A DNA stretch of 29,952 nucleotides, from IMG/VR virus record IMGVR_UViG_3300034403_000277, positions 1 through 29,952 of that record. One strand, 5' to 3'. This document shows positions 2,743 to 28,590 of this stretch, piece after piece (the stretch's first letter is position 1; every line of letters starts with the position of its first letter). A program made the position numbers and the translations under genes. The stretch comes from a virus. The notes below the pieces were generated by a model. It saw only the letters and a program-made list of their open reading frames with translations. It was not told where the DNA came from and searched no databases.

Positions 2743-2825
2743 ATAAATACCTCTCAAAAACTTCAACTTCAAGTTATATTGTACTCTTGTTTTTCAAAAA
2801 AGTAAAGGTTTATTTTAACTTTTTT
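2737..2825 (-). promoter_or_regulatory. VWA-gene leader: sigma70-like promoter and RBS (copy 2 of the shared leader)
   Basis: TTTACT (2801-2806) and TACAAT (2778-2783) are separated by 17 bases on the minus strand. Both the AT-rich block upstream of the -35 and the RBS/ATG block match the cobS leader, while the DNA between them differs except for the -10. Confidence 0.75.
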
Positions 2826-3640
2826 TAAAAAAATGATTCTAGACTATTATATTGCGAGAGCATATATGCTTTTTTCCATGAGACTCTAACTTCCATTCTG
2901 GTCTTAGAACCTTCTTCCGCAACCCATGAAGGATTTGCTTTTAAATACTGAGCGACAATGGTAGGAAAGTGTTTCATCAATTGTTTTTGGCTTTGCTCTT
3001 GAACTGAGTTATCTCTAGAAATAGAGTTGCCACCTTTAGTGCCGTGTTTGTGATCGAACACCCAATCATGTAACATCAAATTCTTATACCCTTTACTGAA
3101 CATCGACAACAACATATAAAAGTCTTCAAGAACCTTTGCTTGAGAGTTCTCATCTTCAAGAGTAGTAAATCGCACACCTTCCTTTTGTATCATTTTAGAA
3201 TTAATCCCGTAACATGAATACGATCGGATAATCTCAGAACGAGATTCTTTATGTAATGTATTACTAGACTTAGGGGAAGGTCCAACCCAAAAATAATTGT
3301 CGAGTTCCTTTTCAATTTCATCAAACATTGCAATGTATTCAGAAGCTTCTGATAGTTTAACATGTTTAACTTTATCCTCTTCATAAACTCTTTTCATAAA
3401 GACGCATTGGTCGTCTATGATCAAGACCTTATCACCAAGTTCCATGCATGATTGCCTGACTTCGGGAATGAAAAGTTCTCCCTCAAACTCATGGACATTC
3501 GCAGTAGGATTTGCTTGTTTTAGCAAATCCCCTCTACCACTATGAGTTGCTAAAATTACTTTCTTTTGGATTTCAGGCGGAAGAAGATTATATGCTTTTT
3601 GGTTATCTTCTCTTTTAAACGTGGGTATAACTATTATCAT
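2825..3640 (-). CDS. GT-A-like glycosyltransferase, possibly TET-associated (TAGT-like)
   Basis: This 271-residue protein begins IVIPTFKR, the N-terminal strand of GT-A-fold glycosyltransferases. It has VRQS (61-64) followed by LIIDDQ (73-78), a likely metal/sugar-nucleotide site in place of a DxD motif. A later LEDF...L segment and a GG-S-SRD stretch are also typical of small phage glycosyltransferases. Its ATG overlaps the previous stop as TAATG, so translation is coupled to the GDPD-like gene. It ends a set that begins with a sugar nucleotidyltransferase, and a TET/JBP-like dioxygenase lies just upstream, so transfer of a sugar onto an oxidised DNA base is an attractive role. Glycosylation of host surface or virion protein is the main alternative. 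The family assignment is from memory of motifs, not a search. Confidence 0.6.
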   Translation of the reverse strand: MIIVIPTFKREDNQKAYNLLPPEIQKKVILATHSGRGDLLKQANPTANVHEFEGELFIPEVRQSCMELGDKVLIIDDQCVFMKRVYEEDKVKHVKLSEASEYIAMFDEIEKELDNYFWVGPSPKSSNTLHKESRSEIIRSYSCYGINSKMIQKEGVRFTTLEDENSQAKVLEDFYMLLSMFSKGYKNLMLHDWVFDHKHGTKGGNSISRDNSVQEQSQKQLMKHFPTIVAQYLKANPSWVAEEGSKTRMEVRVSWKKAYMLSQYNSLESFF

Positions 3641-4068: not shown

Positions 4069-4400
4069 TGTCTTTTAACCACATACTTGTCACCGATTAC
4101 ACAAGGAGTTTTCACACACATAATCGTACAATCTTCTTTAAAATTTGGGTCTACCACAAAATCCGGATGTATTACGAAAATATCCCCCTTTACATATTCA
4201 ACACCATCAATCTCAACGATGCCTTCAAATACATAATTGTATTCAGTTGCCAATTTATGATAATGCTTTTCCCAAATTTCCCCTTTACGGTGCATTTTAA
4301 CAGAAACTTCAAACTCATCCGTCTGAAGCAGAGATGGCTGAAAGTTCCCTATAAACCACCCACCAGTAAAATCTTCAATTCTATATTTGTCTATTAACAT
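4065..4400 (-). CDS. Small cupin-domain protein
   Basis: The protein has 111 residues when started at the ATG at 4400, which overlaps the end of the upstream gene and has GAGGA about 9 bases upstream. A longer frame from 4424 would start well inside the upstream gene and is less likely. KHYHK followed by a glutamate and YVFEG is a cupin motif 1 with candidate metal ligands; VKGDIFVIHP is the motif 2 region. Single-domain cupins next to sugar nucleotidyltransferases are often sugar isomerases or binding proteins, but no specific reaction can be read here. It is the second gene of a four-gene overlapping set. Confidence 0.75.
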   Translation of the reverse strand: MLIDKYRIEDFTGGWFIGNFQPSLLQTDEFEVSVKMHRKGEIWEKHYHKLATEYNYVFEGIVEIDGVEYVKGDIFVIHPDFVVDPNFKEDCTIMCVKTPCVIGDKYVVKRQ

Positions 4401-5482
4401 TTCAATAATTCCTCGGAAGTCCATCCTTTATCAGTTATAACATCCACGCAACTCGAACGAGGTTCACTCAAAGATGATATCATGTCATTCACAACTACTC
4501 GTTTCCCTTGAGAAACTCCTAGAATGAGTTGATCATAGGGAATTCCCAATCTTGCTAAGTTCTTTTCAGTAAATCTGCGGGAGGATTCCTTTCTAGCAGA
4601 CACTAATATAATCTTGTGGCCAAGGGAATCTATCTCATCTAATGCTGCGATAACTCCTGGACATGCTTCTTGTCCTTCTTTATTTAAATTGGAGTATCTA
4701 TGCCCATGTAACAACACTGTACCGTCCAGATCAATAAAAAAGGTTCTTGGTTTCGGCATATGGAACTCTGCCAAATAACCTTTAAATATATAGAAATCTT
4801 CAGGAGTTCCCAAAGACCAATACTTACCTTTGATCGGGATAGCTTTTACGATTCCACCTTTACCAATAAGATAAGAGTATGTCTCAGAAATGTAAGTCTC
4901 TCTATCTTCAGGGCAATCATTTACCAATCTCTCAGCAGTGGCTATGAAATCTTTACCGTATCTCCACCAATGCAAACCTACCAAAGCCTGATCAGAAATA
5001 GGATCTTTTTCAACAATTTCAAGTATTTTACCACTACTATCTGAACGGCAGAATGAATTTTTTGGATTGGTCGACTTATAAGTTAAAACTGAACCAACAA
5101 TATCCTCTTCTTCTCTACTGCGGGACAGAAAGTCAGCTACATCCCAATCAAGATACTGATCACAATTAGTTACAATCAGTTCTTCTTCTGGATCGATTAA
5201 GGCTGAAGCAAATAACGCAGTTTCAGTAGCACCACTAGTCATTTCATTAATCCAAATGAACTCTGCTTCAGGAACTTCTGCCTCAACTTCTTCCTTATAT
5301 CCTTCACCCAAGTCCCTAGCAATTAAAACAACTTTCCACGATGACAGGACTAGATTTAATGAATCTATAGAACGTCGAATAAGTTTAATTCCATCGAGCT
5401 CGATCAAAGGTTTATGGGTAGTGAATCCGGCTTTAGTAAACCTCGATCCAAGACCAGCCATAGGTATAACCAATGTTTTCAT
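4394..5482 (-). CDS. Sugar-phosphate nucleotidyltransferase fused to a HAD phosphatase domain
   Basis: The 362-residue protein has two domains. Residues 1-240 form an NTP_transferase (GT-A-type nucleotidyltransferase) fold: MAGLGSRF (8-15) binds the nucleotide, KP (24-25) follows, and NCDQ (106-109) holds the metal-binding aspartate. Residues 245-362 form a HAD domain with DLDGT (251-255), VSAR (294-297), a lysine at 328 and VND (331-333). Such fusions make NDP-sugars and remove or process a phosphate on the precursor. It heads the four-gene set and sits behind its own sigma70-like promoter at 5517-5545. It would supply the activated sugar for the glycosyltransferase three genes downstream; the sugar identity is not visible. 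Confidence 0.85.
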   Translation of the reverse strand: MKTLVIPMAGLGSRFTKAGFTTHKPLIELDGIKLIRRSIDSLNLVLSSWKVVLIARDLGEGYKEEVEAEVPEAEFIWINEMTSGATETALFASALIDPEEELIVTNCDQYLDWDVADFLSRSREEEDIVGSVLTYKSTNPKNSFCRSDSSGKILEIVEKDPISDQALVGLHWWRYGKDFIATAERLVNDCPEDRETYISETYSYLIGKGGIVKAIPIKGKYWSLGTPEDFYIFKGYLAEFHMPKPRTFFIDLDGTVLLHGHRYSNLNKEGQEACPGVIAALDEIDSLGHKIILVSARKESSRRFTEKNLARLGIPYDQLILGVSQGKRVVVNDMISSLSEPRSSCVDVITDKGWTSEELLKC

Positions 5483-5549: not shown

Positions 5550-6950
5550 TTAGAAAAAAGAATCAAGCGTAGGAACTATTTCATATGCTTTAGGATGATA
5601 CTTCCACACCATCTCTTTGCCGCCTTCGTCTTCTAAGAATTCGTACCACTCTGAACTTTCCCACATTTTAGGGGAAACGCCATTCCATAAGTGCCGCCAA
5701 AATTCGTGTTTTTTATTCTTACGTCTAGTATCTACGAATTTTCTTCTAAGGTTTTCATATTCCCACGAACCAAGTGCCGCCATATCTTCACGAAAGTAGT
5801 AAACTAAAGACATACGCAACATATCATCTTTCCCCGATTCAGGAGGTTCGATAGGAGTATTGCCATGTATTATTCTCATGTTATCGATAAACAAGAGATC
5901 TCCTGGTCTTACATTAATAGCTGCTCTCACTTCTGGCACAACCAAATATCCACCTTCCCACCCTTTACCATCTTTAGTGACAACAGTAAGGTTAGAGAAT
6001 CCAGAATTGAGTGAACCTGCATCGCGATGGCATGCCATACGAGCATTTCTATCGGCAGTGGTTGTGTTCACTGTAATTGTAGTAAATGTAGTATCCTCAC
6101 CAATTAAGAATTTCTTATCCATTTTGGCAGCATATTCGTTTTGCCTTGCCCAACGTTCTGGCATTAACCGCTTAAACTCAGCTTCAAGTTTACGAGCATA
6201 TGGATAACTCTTCTTGAACTTCTCCAAGTTATATTCAACATAGCTTGTAGCACGACCATAGGGGATACGAGGATATCGCCCATAAAACCCTGCGATTCCC
6301 GACCAAAGAGGTGCAGCATATGAAGTGTCAGAAATGTAAGTTGCGCTAACATTCTTAGCAACTGCACGTGCCTCTTCTAAATCCATTGTCGCTAATTCTT
6401 CCATTAATGTAGGGAAGAATTTGGAATATTCTCCGTAGGAACTTTCAACTTTATTCCTCAACCAAACCCCACCACGAGTTTGATGTTTTGCCGTTTCATG
6501 TTTCTTTTTAATATCATCGATGGGGATAGAACCGTCGACGGTTCTAGGTTGACCTTTAATATAATATTCCAAAATATCAATTTGATAAGGTGTTACCCAA
6601 TCACGTGTCCCACTTTTTTCTGTTCTTGGACCAGCAGCCATACCACGATTATTAGACTCGCCAGCAGCATCAAATAAACCATCATACGCACCATGTTGCT
6701 CTTCTTGACTAAAGGCATTTTTGCGAAATTTGAATGCTACATCATTTTCGCTTAAACGATCATCAGTCGCTAGATTTGACGGTAGATAAAAATCAGCATC
6801 ATTATCTATGAGAATGTCGTAAGAAGTATGGTCAGCATAATTGCCTAGTAAGGTATTTTGATCAATTAAAAACTTAGCAATATAAACGTCTTGCCCCTCA
6901 TCACCCTTATACTTCTGCCAAATGTATCTTCCAAACTTAATTTCTTCCAT
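5550..6950 (-). CDS. 2OG-Fe(II) dioxygenase, probably TET/JBP family
   Basis: The protein has 466 residues from the ATG at 6950, which is preceded by GGAGAAGATA; the in-frame ATG at 6962 lies upstream of that Shine-Dalgarno sequence and is unlikely to be used. The C-terminal half shows a double-stranded beta-helix dioxygenase: iron ligands H308 and D310 (CHRDAGS), a GGYLVVPE strand, NVRPGDLLFID, distal H362 (RIIHGNTP) and the 2OG-binding R379 (MLRMSLVYYF). The spacing and the GGYL/PGD/HG pattern resemble the TET/JBP family, which oxidises 5-methylpyrimidines in DNA. An N-terminal region of about 230 residues is unassigned. A glycosyltransferase cluster follows, as in known phage hypermodification loci. 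No cytosine methyltransferase is visible in the window. Another 2OG oxygenase subfamily is the alternative. Confidence 0.7.
   Translation of the reverse strand: MEEIKFGRYIWQKYKGDEGQDVYIAKFLIDQNTLLGNYADHTSYDILIDNDADFYLPSNLATDDRLSENDVAFKFRKNAFSQEEQHGAYDGLFDAAGESNNRGMAAGPRTEKSGTRDWVTPYQIDILEYYIKGQPRTVDGSIPIDDIKKKHETAKHQTRGGVWLRNKVESSYGEYSKFFPTLMEELATMDLEEARAVAKNVSATYISDTSYAAPLWSGIAGFYGRYPRIPYGRATSYVEYNLEKFKKSYPYARKLEAEFKRLMPERWARQNEYAAKMDKKFLIGEDTTFTTITVNTTTADRNARMACHRDAGSLNSGFSNLTVVTKDGKGWEGGYLVVPEVRAAINVRPGDLLFIDNMRIIHGNTPIEPPESGKDDMLRMSLVYYFREDMAALGSWEYENLRRKFVDTRRKNKKHEFWRHLWNGVSPKMWESSEWYEFLEDEGGKEMVWKYHPKAYEIVPTLDSFF
6527..6546. repeat. 20-bp perfect palindrome inside the dioxygenase gene
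   Basis: TAGAACCGTCGACGGTTCTA reads the same on both strands with no loop. It lies in the coding sequence around the residues PRTVDGS. Confidence 0.9.
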
Positions 6951-6982
6951 TATCTTCTCCATTAATACTTGTTACATAAGGA

Positions 6983-7011
6983 ATTATACCCTATATTTAT
7001 GGAATTGTAAA
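6983..7011 (-). promoter_or_regulatory. Consensus-like sigma70 promoter of the dioxygenase gene
   Basis: TTTACA (7006-7011), 17 bases, TATAAT (6983-6988) on the minus strand, 33 bases before the ATG at 6950. It overlaps the end of the deformylase gene. Confidence 0.8.
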
Positions 7012-7535
7012 GGCATATTCTTCGCCGTCCCTTTAGCAATTCTATCAAGTTTTCTTTTTTGTTTTTTCGCACGTTCAAGTTGGAAATGGCTTGCTCTTTT
7101 ATCGAAGGTCATTCCATGTAAATGATCAAACTGATTCTGGAATATCCTAGCGGTGAGTCCCTCCATGGGCATGGTGCCTACCTTTCCATCATGCCCACTA
7201 AAGCGAACACGAATTTTATGCGGTCTTTTCATCTTAATAAAGAGACCAGGAAAGGTGAGACAACTTTCTTGCATAAGAACATATCCAGTAGAATTTACGA
7301 TAAGCGGATTGAATACAGAAAATACTGAATCCGCTTGATGGGGATCACCTATAACAAATGCTTGATATGGTATGCCCACTTGAGGTGCAGATAAACCCAC
7401 CCCAAGATTAGCAATCATAGTTTCTTTTAGATTCTCAAACAGTTCTATTGGATCCAATGGGGGATTATTGAAGTCAAATTTGTCTGCTGGTTGTCCATGT
7501 AATGCGGGATCGTTACTTAAAATTTTATATATCAT
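6984..7535 (-). CDS. def: Peptide deformylase homologue with degenerate metal site
   Basis: The protein has 183 residues, a normal deformylase length. Motif 1 is GVGLSAPQVG (45-54) and motif 2 is ESCLTFPG (90-97, cysteine ligand C92), both clear. Motif 3, normally HEFDHL with two histidine ligands and the catalytic glutamate, reads N134-Q135-F-D-H138-L. One metal-ligand histidine and the catalytic glutamate are therefore replaced by their amide look-alikes. The reading was checked against the codons (AAT CAG TTT GAT CAT). Active phage deformylases remove the formyl group from nascent host or phage proteins; this copy is predicted to be inactive or altered. It overlaps gp46 by ATGA at the end of the gp46 transcription unit. 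Confidence 0.88.
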   Translation of the reverse strand: MIYKILSNDPALHGQPADKFDFNNPPLDPIELFENLKETMIANLGVGLSAPQVGIPYQAFVIGDPHQADSVFSVFNPLIVNSTGYVLMQESCLTFPGLFIKMKRPHKIRVRFSGHDGKVGTMPMEGLTARIFQNQFDHLHGMTFDKRASHFQLERAKKQKRKLDRIAKGTAKNMPLQFHKYRV

Positions 7536-27430: not shown

Positions 27431-27892
27431 CTATGATTTGCCCAGATAAAATGATCCGGCTGCTAAAATACTAATCTTCAGCCATTCGAAATGAACCACT
27501 GCATTGTCAAATCTTAAGTATTCTGTTATAGTCTTAGACGTATCAAATGCCCCAAAGAAGTAAGAGCCACCAACTTGAGTTTGGACAGGAACTACAACAT
27601 CAAGACCTGCAAGTCCGGCAAGCATTGCCCAAGCACCCATTGCAACCATAGACAAAACGAATATCCGTCTCGTCAGTTTTGCGAAGGGATCGTTTGAATT
27701 TCTATTTGCTGCTGCGTCTGCCGATTTGGATGCTGATTCTCGGTCCGCCACCCGATGCTCGTGTTCTTGTTGATTTTTCTTCATCAACAATTCCATTTGC
27801 GCTGCTTTGTTTTTCTGAGCCTGATCCATGAATTTGAACAGACCGCCCATTGCTGCGCCCCCTGCCATTGTTATCAACTCTACTGGTATCAT
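27431..27892 (-). CDS. Membrane protein, candidate holin or lysis-associated protein
   Basis: The 153-residue protein has a charged coiled-coil segment at about 24-58 (KNKAAQMELLMKKNQQEHEHR). A hydrophobic stretch follows at about 76-97 (IFVLSMVAMGAWAMLAGLAG), and a second hydrophobic C-terminal stretch (WLKISILAAGSFYLG) at about 136-150. I do not recognise a family. Its position next to a spanin-like lipoprotein suggests a lysis role, but this is inferred. Its start is inside the A7 tract of the upstream gene, with which it overlaps by up to 191 bases in a different frame. Confidence 0.7.
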   Translation of the reverse strand: MIPVELITMAGGAAMGGLFKFMDQAQKNKAAQMELLMKKNQQEHEHRVADRESASKSADAAANRNSNDPFAKLTRRIFVLSMVAMGAWAMLAGLAGLDVVVPVQTQVGGSYFFGAFDTSKTITEYLRFDNAVVHFEWLKISILAAGSFYLGKS

Positions 27893-28280
27893 TTTTTTCG
27901 CCCCTTTTCTTTATAAATCTAAATTGCCTAACGCTATTTATAAAGAATATTGTTCCGGATAAGACCCAAACAACAATTAACCAAAGTGGTATGGCTGTAA
28001 ATCCTTTTATGAGATCAAATTTTGGTTCTAAAAGTGGATCAACAACAGAAACGTTATTGACTATAGAAGAGTGTTCAGGACTAGATGATTCGACCACCAC
28101 CTTGCCATCTTTTTTAGTGATGGCAGTTTCAATGGTGGTCGGAATCTTATCTACTTTTAATTTAGAGTGCGTTGCTTCAACCAATTCAATCGCAAGTGGA
28201 ATAACACTCTCGCAACTATTAAGTGAAAGGCAACATAATATTATTACAATTAATTTAACATTTCTGTACTTACATAACAC
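27702..28280 (-). CDS. Lipoprotein with C-terminal membrane segment: candidate unimolecular spanin
   Basis: Started at GTG 28280, with AGGTGA upstream; TTG at 28283 is the alternative and no in-frame ATG exists nearby. The N-terminus (KYRNVK then LIVIILCCLSLNSC) is a lipoprotein signal with a lipobox ending at about Cys23. About 70 polar residues follow, then a transmembrane helix (AIPLWLIVVWVLSGTIFFI) near 97-115 and basic residues. This outer-membrane anchor plus inner-membrane helix is the layout of u-spanins such as T1 gp11. The last 62 residues are serine/arginine/glycine-rich and overlap the next gene out of frame. They begin at an A7 tract (27892-27898) where one added A, or a -1 slip, would end the protein at about 130 residues. 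The natural end is therefore uncertain. Confidence 0.65.
   Translation of the reverse strand: MLCKYRNVKLIVIILCCLSLNSCESVIPLAIELVEATHSKLKVDKIPTTIETAITKKDGKVVVESSSPEHSSIVNNVSVVDPLLEPKFDLIKGFTAIPLWLIVVWVLSGTIFFINSVRQFRFIKKRGEKNDTSRVDNNGRGRSNGRSVQIHGSGSEKQSSANGIVDEEKSTRTRASGGGPRISIQIGRRSSK
27935..27942 (-). promoter_or_regulatory. T4-type late promoter of the membrane protein gene
   Basis: TATAAATA on the minus strand, 42 bases before the ATG at 27892, inside the spanin-like gene. Confidence 0.65.
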
Positions 28281-28284
28281 CAAA

Positions 28285-28359
28285 TCACCTGTTGCTTATA
28301 TAAAGAGTCACTTCAAATCCAAATCGTAAATCATTATATTCTGGTTTTTTCCATTTCAT
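28285..28359 (-). CDS. pqqA: PqqA-like 24-residue peptide (PQQ precursor)
   Basis: A complete 24-codon gene lies between 28359 and the TGA at 28285, with the strong Shine-Dalgarno GGAGG 7 bases before the ATG. The peptide MKWKKPEYNDLRFGFEVTLY plus ISNR has every PqqA landmark: the W-x-K-P start, DLR-x-G-x-EVT-x-Y in the middle and a basic C-terminus. Glu16 and Tyr20 have the E-x-x-x-Y spacing of the two residues that the PqqE radical-SAM enzyme links to make pyrroloquinoline quinone. The C-terminal half is nearly the same as my recollection of Klebsiella PqqA. It lies 4 bases before the spanin-like gene and 15 bases after the 71-residue gene. No pqqB, C, D or E is visible in the window. Confidence 0.82.
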   Translation of the reverse strand: MKWKKPEYNDLRFGFEVTLYISNR

Positions 28360-28374
28360 ATAATTTCCTCCATA

Positions 28375-28590
28375 TTAATCTAACACGTCAAAATCGTAAG
28401 CAAACCCACCATAATTATTTTCCCTAACATATATTGGAATATATCCATTTAGATTTGTTTTTATTATTGGGTTCGCTGAAAGTTTATCTCTACAATAATC
28501 ATCATATTGCAGCATATCAGGTGTTACATGGAAATGTAACATTATATGTTTTCTTACCATATTGTGAGTCAAAATATCATTTTTGTTCAC
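28375..28590 (-). CDS. Small unknown protein upstream of the PqqA-like gene
   Basis: The protein has 71 residues from GTG 28590, with AAGGAG 9 bases upstream; the nearby ATG is out of frame. It is mixed and mildly polar, with HNMVRKHIMLHFHVTPDML and a tyrosine-rich C-terminus (YIPIYVRENNYGGFAYDF). No signal peptide, membrane helix or known motif is visible. It is the gene just before pqqA, but I do not recognise it as any PQQ maturation protein (it lacks the length and motifs of PqqD). Confidence 0.6.
   Translation of the reverse strand: MNKNDILTHNMVRKHIMLHFHVTPDMLQYDDYCRDKLSANPIIKTNLNGYIPIYVRENNYGGFAYDFDVLD

Follow-up and report, generated by a model that had tools for sequence, protein, structure and literature searches.

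PqqA precursor genes in methylotroph phages: a 24-codon gene in a T4-like viral contig and its counterparts in other phages

PqqA is the peptide that bacteria convert into the redox cofactor pyrroloquinoline quinone (PQQ). The first point of comparison for the gene described here, found in an IMG/VR virus record of 29,952 bases and 36.7% G+C (IMGVR_UViG_3300034403_000277, analysed as one stretch and called the window below), is the PqqA of bacterial operons (TIGR02107, PF08042): the two have the same length, a Trp/Pro N-terminus, a Glu-x-x-x-Tyr core and a C-terminal Asn-Arg, whereas the neighbours of the window gene are late phage genes and do not include pqqBCDE. Single-gene precursor copies are also known in methylotroph genomes, as extra stand-alone pqqA genes that share a single set of maturation enzymes, but these are chromosomal and not viral.

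As for viruses, PqqA was reported in 2020 in T4-like Methylophilaceae phages of Lake Baikal (PMC7678222), and pqqA is listed, with no detail, among the viral genes of a reservoir sediment (PMC13188868). By its published description, the Baikal phage population VP_266 is, like the window, a T4-like sequence with pqqA, a peptide deformylase on the same contig and a low G+C content (35%), but the window fragment has no methanol dehydrogenase (PMC7678222). The OM43/LD28 phages Melnitz, Venkman, MEP301, MEP401/402 and P19250A share with the window a stand-alone short gene with a ribosome site and no PqqE in the record, and Melnitz is T4-like as well; in contrast to the window, their peptides are of the Methylophilaceae type (mostly EVTMYVMNK-like) and the genes occupy other genomic positions. 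Phage PqqA as a kind is already known (PMC7678222); what is new here is its extent across lineages and contigs.

The window gene runs from ATG to TGA on the minus strand and its 24-residue product ends in EVTLYISNR (Table 1); the preliminary description had the interval right and gave no strand, and the plus strand was rejected as the coding one. The 24 codons with a ribosome site, Glu16, Tyr20 and the EVT-x-Y-x-S-N-R ending were also as it claimed. Glu16 and Tyr20, which we take to be the pair crosslinked into PQQ in the known pathway, provide the Glu-x-x-x-Tyr arrangement within a peptide of PqqA size (~22–30 residues). The identification as PqqA was borne out by both family profiles, TIGR02107 (PqqA, equivalog) with 45.1 bits, E 6e-12 and a cut-off of 20, and Pfam PF08042 with 38.8 bits, E 8.8e-10 and a cut-off of 21.1. 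Because these scores are far above the curated cut-offs and no PqqA match was obtained in 14 control genomes, the match is not due to chance, and on these sequence data the gene is assigned as a genuine PqqA gene. The start codon and ribosome site are those of a translated gene, while constraint was seen in the other viral copies instead. Regarding further searches, the window peptide found no family in PHROGs (best E 0.22) and nothing meaningful among solved structures, and RNA fold, promoter and terminator scans at the gene gave nothing exceeding shuffles.

Table 1. Features of the window discussed in the text (coordinates on the 29,952-base stretch)
Feature	Coordinates	Strand	Basis or remark
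pqqA-like gene, 24 aa, MKWKKPEYNDLRFGFEVTLYISNR	28285..28359 (including stop)	minus	translation; family matches above curated cut-offs
Codons Glu16 to Tyr20	28300..28314	minus	translation
Ribosome binding site GGAGG, 7 nt before ATG	28367..28371	minus	sequence
Upstream small ORF, 71 aa, co-directional	28375..28590	minus	no family match; absent from fetched relatives
Downstream ORF, 193 aa, lipoprotein-like N-terminus (by eye)	27702..28283	minus	kept in T4-like relatives
Holin-like protein, 153 aa	27431..27892	minus	weak GTA_holin_3TM match, below cut-off; kept in relatives
Phage peptide deformylase	6984..7535	minus	PF01327
NTP-transferase/HAD protein	5550..6962	minus	
TET-associated glycosyltransferase	4394..5482	minus	weak match
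Tet/JBP oxygenase	2825..3640	minus	

Regarding its surroundings, pqqA shares its strand with the T4-type terminase, the major capsid protein and other core genes of the window. The terminase is closest to those of the Sinorhizobium phages phiN3/phiM12 (~58%), and the capsid protein to those of Pelagibacter phage Mosig and Methylophilales phage Melnitz (65–67%); therefore, the window represents a T4-like phage that has no close relative among isolates. As is asked of an auxiliary metabolic gene (AMG), pqqA lies among phage genes on a viral contig, between small ORFs of no known family and the conserved lipoprotein-like and holin-like pair, and no host-like flank was seen around it. Elsewhere in the window, the Tet/JBP oxygenase, glycosyltransferase and NTP-transferase/HAD genes are clustered, which suggests that this phage may have hypermodified DNA bases.

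In the syntenic T4-like relatives of the window that cover the site, pqqA is absent, their best matches being equal to those of shuffled controls, and the relatives of the lipoprotein-like/holin-like pair that extend past the site also have no small ORFs there. The content of this site thus varies, and these comparisons place the acquisition of pqqA in or close to the window lineage, as a recent or a sporadic event. The sequence of the nearest relative, L260, stops at this position, and its first nine bases, AAT AGG TGA, are those of the final Asn-Arg-stop of pqqA, which hints that the gene may be present there too. Conservation in related phages, by which the preliminary description wished its reading to be judged, is therefore divided: the syntenic T4-like relatives lack the gene, whereas distant methylotroph phages of several lineages keep it under purifying constraint.

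Among annotated phages, a tblastn search of 50,697 phage records with the window peptide gave PqqA in 12, with MEP431-434 and HIM624-A left out of the individual pqqA checks. Nine of these records are Melnitz (four variants), Venkman, MEP301, MEP401, MEP402 and P19250A, and one is an unassigned spring-water phage that shares Venkman's lineage; the named hosts of the true pqqA phages are all Methylophilales methylotrophs, in support of the earlier proposal of a PQQ-making host. The other two records, filed as Acinetobacter phage (MD-2021a), were rejected as phage evidence: the one opened is bacterial, with full pqqABCDE and host genes (L003, CAKLQF020000010.1, an Acinetobacter-like chromosomal contig), and CAKLQH020000055.1 gives the same match. 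The SAR11 phages Mosig and HTVC008M, close to Melnitz, had no PqqA match by tblastn.

The guess that the gene is widely missed proved right: viral pqqA is skipped in annotation because it is 23–25 codons long; Melnitz has an opposite-strand ORF annotated in its place, and Venkman, MEP301, MEP401, MEP402 and P19250A have no annotated feature at the site. In P19250A, the unannotated gene is at KX815270.1:28085-28153 (L008), and its peptide is identical to one in Methylotenera genomes; its presence is at odds with the Lake Baikal paper, according to which the AMGs of that study are all missing from P19250A (PMC7678222).

In IMG/VR, viral copies were found with degenerate DNA patterns, which fix the core residues, so conservation was judged only outside them. 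The FGFEVT-x-Y pattern matched at least 120 contigs and, together with a wider pattern, gave 125 viral peptides; all 125 are 23–25 residues long, have a ribosome site, and keep Trp and Pro invariant at positions not in the pattern. With a pN/pS of 0.34 at positions outside the search motif, the copies of several methylotroph phage lineages are, as judged from their codons, under purifying constraint. As for abundance, the pattern with Thr as ACG matched at least 120 contigs, and 118 of the 120 matches listed passed the W..P check; with Gly as GGG in addition, the complete list had 15 contigs, 6 of them in the ACG matches listed. This overlap of 6/15 implies ~300 ACG contigs. ACG was the Thr codon in 5 of the first 120 matches listed, so the IMG/VR contigs carrying pqqA are estimated at ~7,000; the small counts leave this order of magnitude uncertain by a factor of about three, and the database is also redundant.

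The RFGFEVT motif of the window is mainly of the methylotroph PqqA type, and its peptide differs from others in combining EVTLY with RFGF. RIGFEVT, the typical motif of Pseudomonas and Acinetobacter PqqA and seen here in an Acinetobacter copy, occurred in just two viral contigs. As probably chromosomal, two stretches from the EVTLY scan, L417 and L431, were left out of the phage count. One contig of 229,675 bases (L584, IMGVR_UViG_3300013093_000017) carries a T4-like gene 23 and two matches to the pqqA motif, separated by 134 bases.

Protein sharing among 263 stretches, a crude grouping by single linkage on short stretches, placed Venkman, MEP301 and P19250A in one group, Melnitz and the window (T4-like) in a second, MEP401/402 in a third, and eleven enterobacterial contigs of lambda-like type, which carry tail and tail fibre genes, in a fourth (L416, L418, L422, L423, L424, L426, L428, L430, L432, L435, L437). 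By this measure, no fewer than four unrelated lineages of phages, clearly distinct in type, carry stand-alone pqqA. It is opposite in strand to both neighbours, that is, a stand-alone unit, in 43 of 105 loci; in T4-like stretches with both genes, it adjoins the 3' end of the major capsid gene 23 in 10/10 and is co-directional with it in 8/10, although some of these ten loci are near-identical and the independent cases are fewer. The pqqA-free relatives of the window, and the many pqqA copies on offer in host genomes, would also suit a host gene picked up by chance and useless to the phage; the pN/pS value, the conserved ribosome sites, the recurrence in unrelated lineages and the placement beside gene 23 argue against such a passenger, which we regard as unlikely, even if a motif-based search misses decayed copies and loss is thus under-counted.

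In the lambda-like contigs, pqqA follows the tail fibre genes as a stand-alone gene and converges on a UmuD-like neighbour; it has a ribosome site and a terminator-like hairpin. This unit, absent from E. coli genomes, is likely a lysogenic conversion gene. Methanol oxidation is not at issue in these eleven contigs, and they would fit with PQQ from the phage peptide serving another need, such as redox protection in the infected cell or, where the phage is temperate, a lasting benefit to the lysogen through raised glucose dehydrogenase activity. Such a role leaves the strong link to methylotroph phages unexplained, and it is given little credence as the general explanation.

As for the maturation genes, they are out of view, as the preliminary description had it: pqqBCDE were not recognised among the window ORFs, and pqqB, C, D or E lay near viral pqqA in 0/134 loci, against pqqB near 52/118 bacterial loci; PqqE did not exceed its cut-off in any of 49 viral records, many of them fragments. 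The usual company of pqqBCDE in the same operon is thus missing for the window and for the other viral copies, but it is not strictly required, because hosts also hold stand-alone pqqA copies. Likewise, PQQ alcohol dehydrogenases were not found near viral pqqA, apart from one contig (L046/L553, IMGVR_UViG_3300025120_009955) that was set aside, since the genes around its methanol dehydrogenase (formate dehydrogenase-like, SoxYZ and CHASE2-cyclase) look bacterial; it is a caution for claims of viral methanol dehydrogenase.

A viral pqqA without adjacent maturation genes makes a peptide that must meet host enzymes, and could there compete with host PqqA. As a decoy for host PqqD/PqqE, which was suggested earlier, or as an inhibitor, it would occupy these proteins unproductively, lower PQQ, and divert resources or block a host function. 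This idea found no support and is very improbable: the crosslinkable Glu and Tyr are kept in every recovered viral copy, though the search motif required both, and 59/262 viral peptides, that of P19250A among them, are letter-identical to host PqqA, so that they cannot inhibit in a way the host's own peptide does not.

Regarding the hosts, Methylophilaceae and Methylophaga genomes had 2–10 pqqA copies each, and published Methylophilaceae genomes have 3–12, usually with a single pqqBCDE set (PMC4109929); with so many copies for one maturation set, precursor dosage appears to matter. The host peptides closest to the window PqqA are from Methylococcales (20/24 residues), others in the class sample reaching at most 75%, and none of those recovered is identical to it. 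Viral copies are thus identical or close to host PqqA, as expected for a host-derived metabolic gene, and the window host was probably a methanotroph or other methylotroph, an assignment made from 24 residues.

Taken together, it is likely that the window gene encodes a true PqqA precursor working as an auxiliary metabolic gene, a reading already put forward in the preliminary description and supported by the related phages. During infection, the phage would make only PqqA, the substrate that the pathway consumes. This peptide would be bound by host PqqD/PqqE and its Glu16 crosslinked to Tyr20, and the host protease, PqqB and PqqC would complete PQQ. The cofactor would then load new periplasmic PQQ dehydrogenase, in methylotrophs the XoxF/Mxa methanol dehydrogenase, and the active enzyme would keep energy and C1 supply going as host transcription falls; in a coastal OM43 isolate, xoxF is the top transcript (PMC5120137). 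Each PQQ formed costs one PqqA and the enzymes are catalytic, so a 72-bp gene would suffice, and precursor supply would be the natural control point for a virus with little room. In Acetobacter, overexpression of pqqAB raised PQQ by 29%, and that of the whole cluster eightfold (PMC7936290), which suggests that PqqA alone may give a limited gain and that the effect would be modest but positive.

In conclusion, we lean towards the view that pqqA belongs to the smallest and most widespread AMGs of methylotroph viruses, gained independently by at least four phage lineages and largely overlooked by gene callers, and that it serves a strategy in which the phage supplies only the consumable, in T4-like phages often from a position beside the capsid gene that would favour strong late expression, and all catalysis is left to the host. 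PQQ-dependent methanol oxidation is a major step of the aquatic carbon cycle; if the proposed role is true, viruses would routinely act on it, given the thousands of contigs estimated here and the several unrelated groups of isolates. The cultured phage-host systems of Melnitz, Venkman, MEP401 and P19250A make the idea directly testable.
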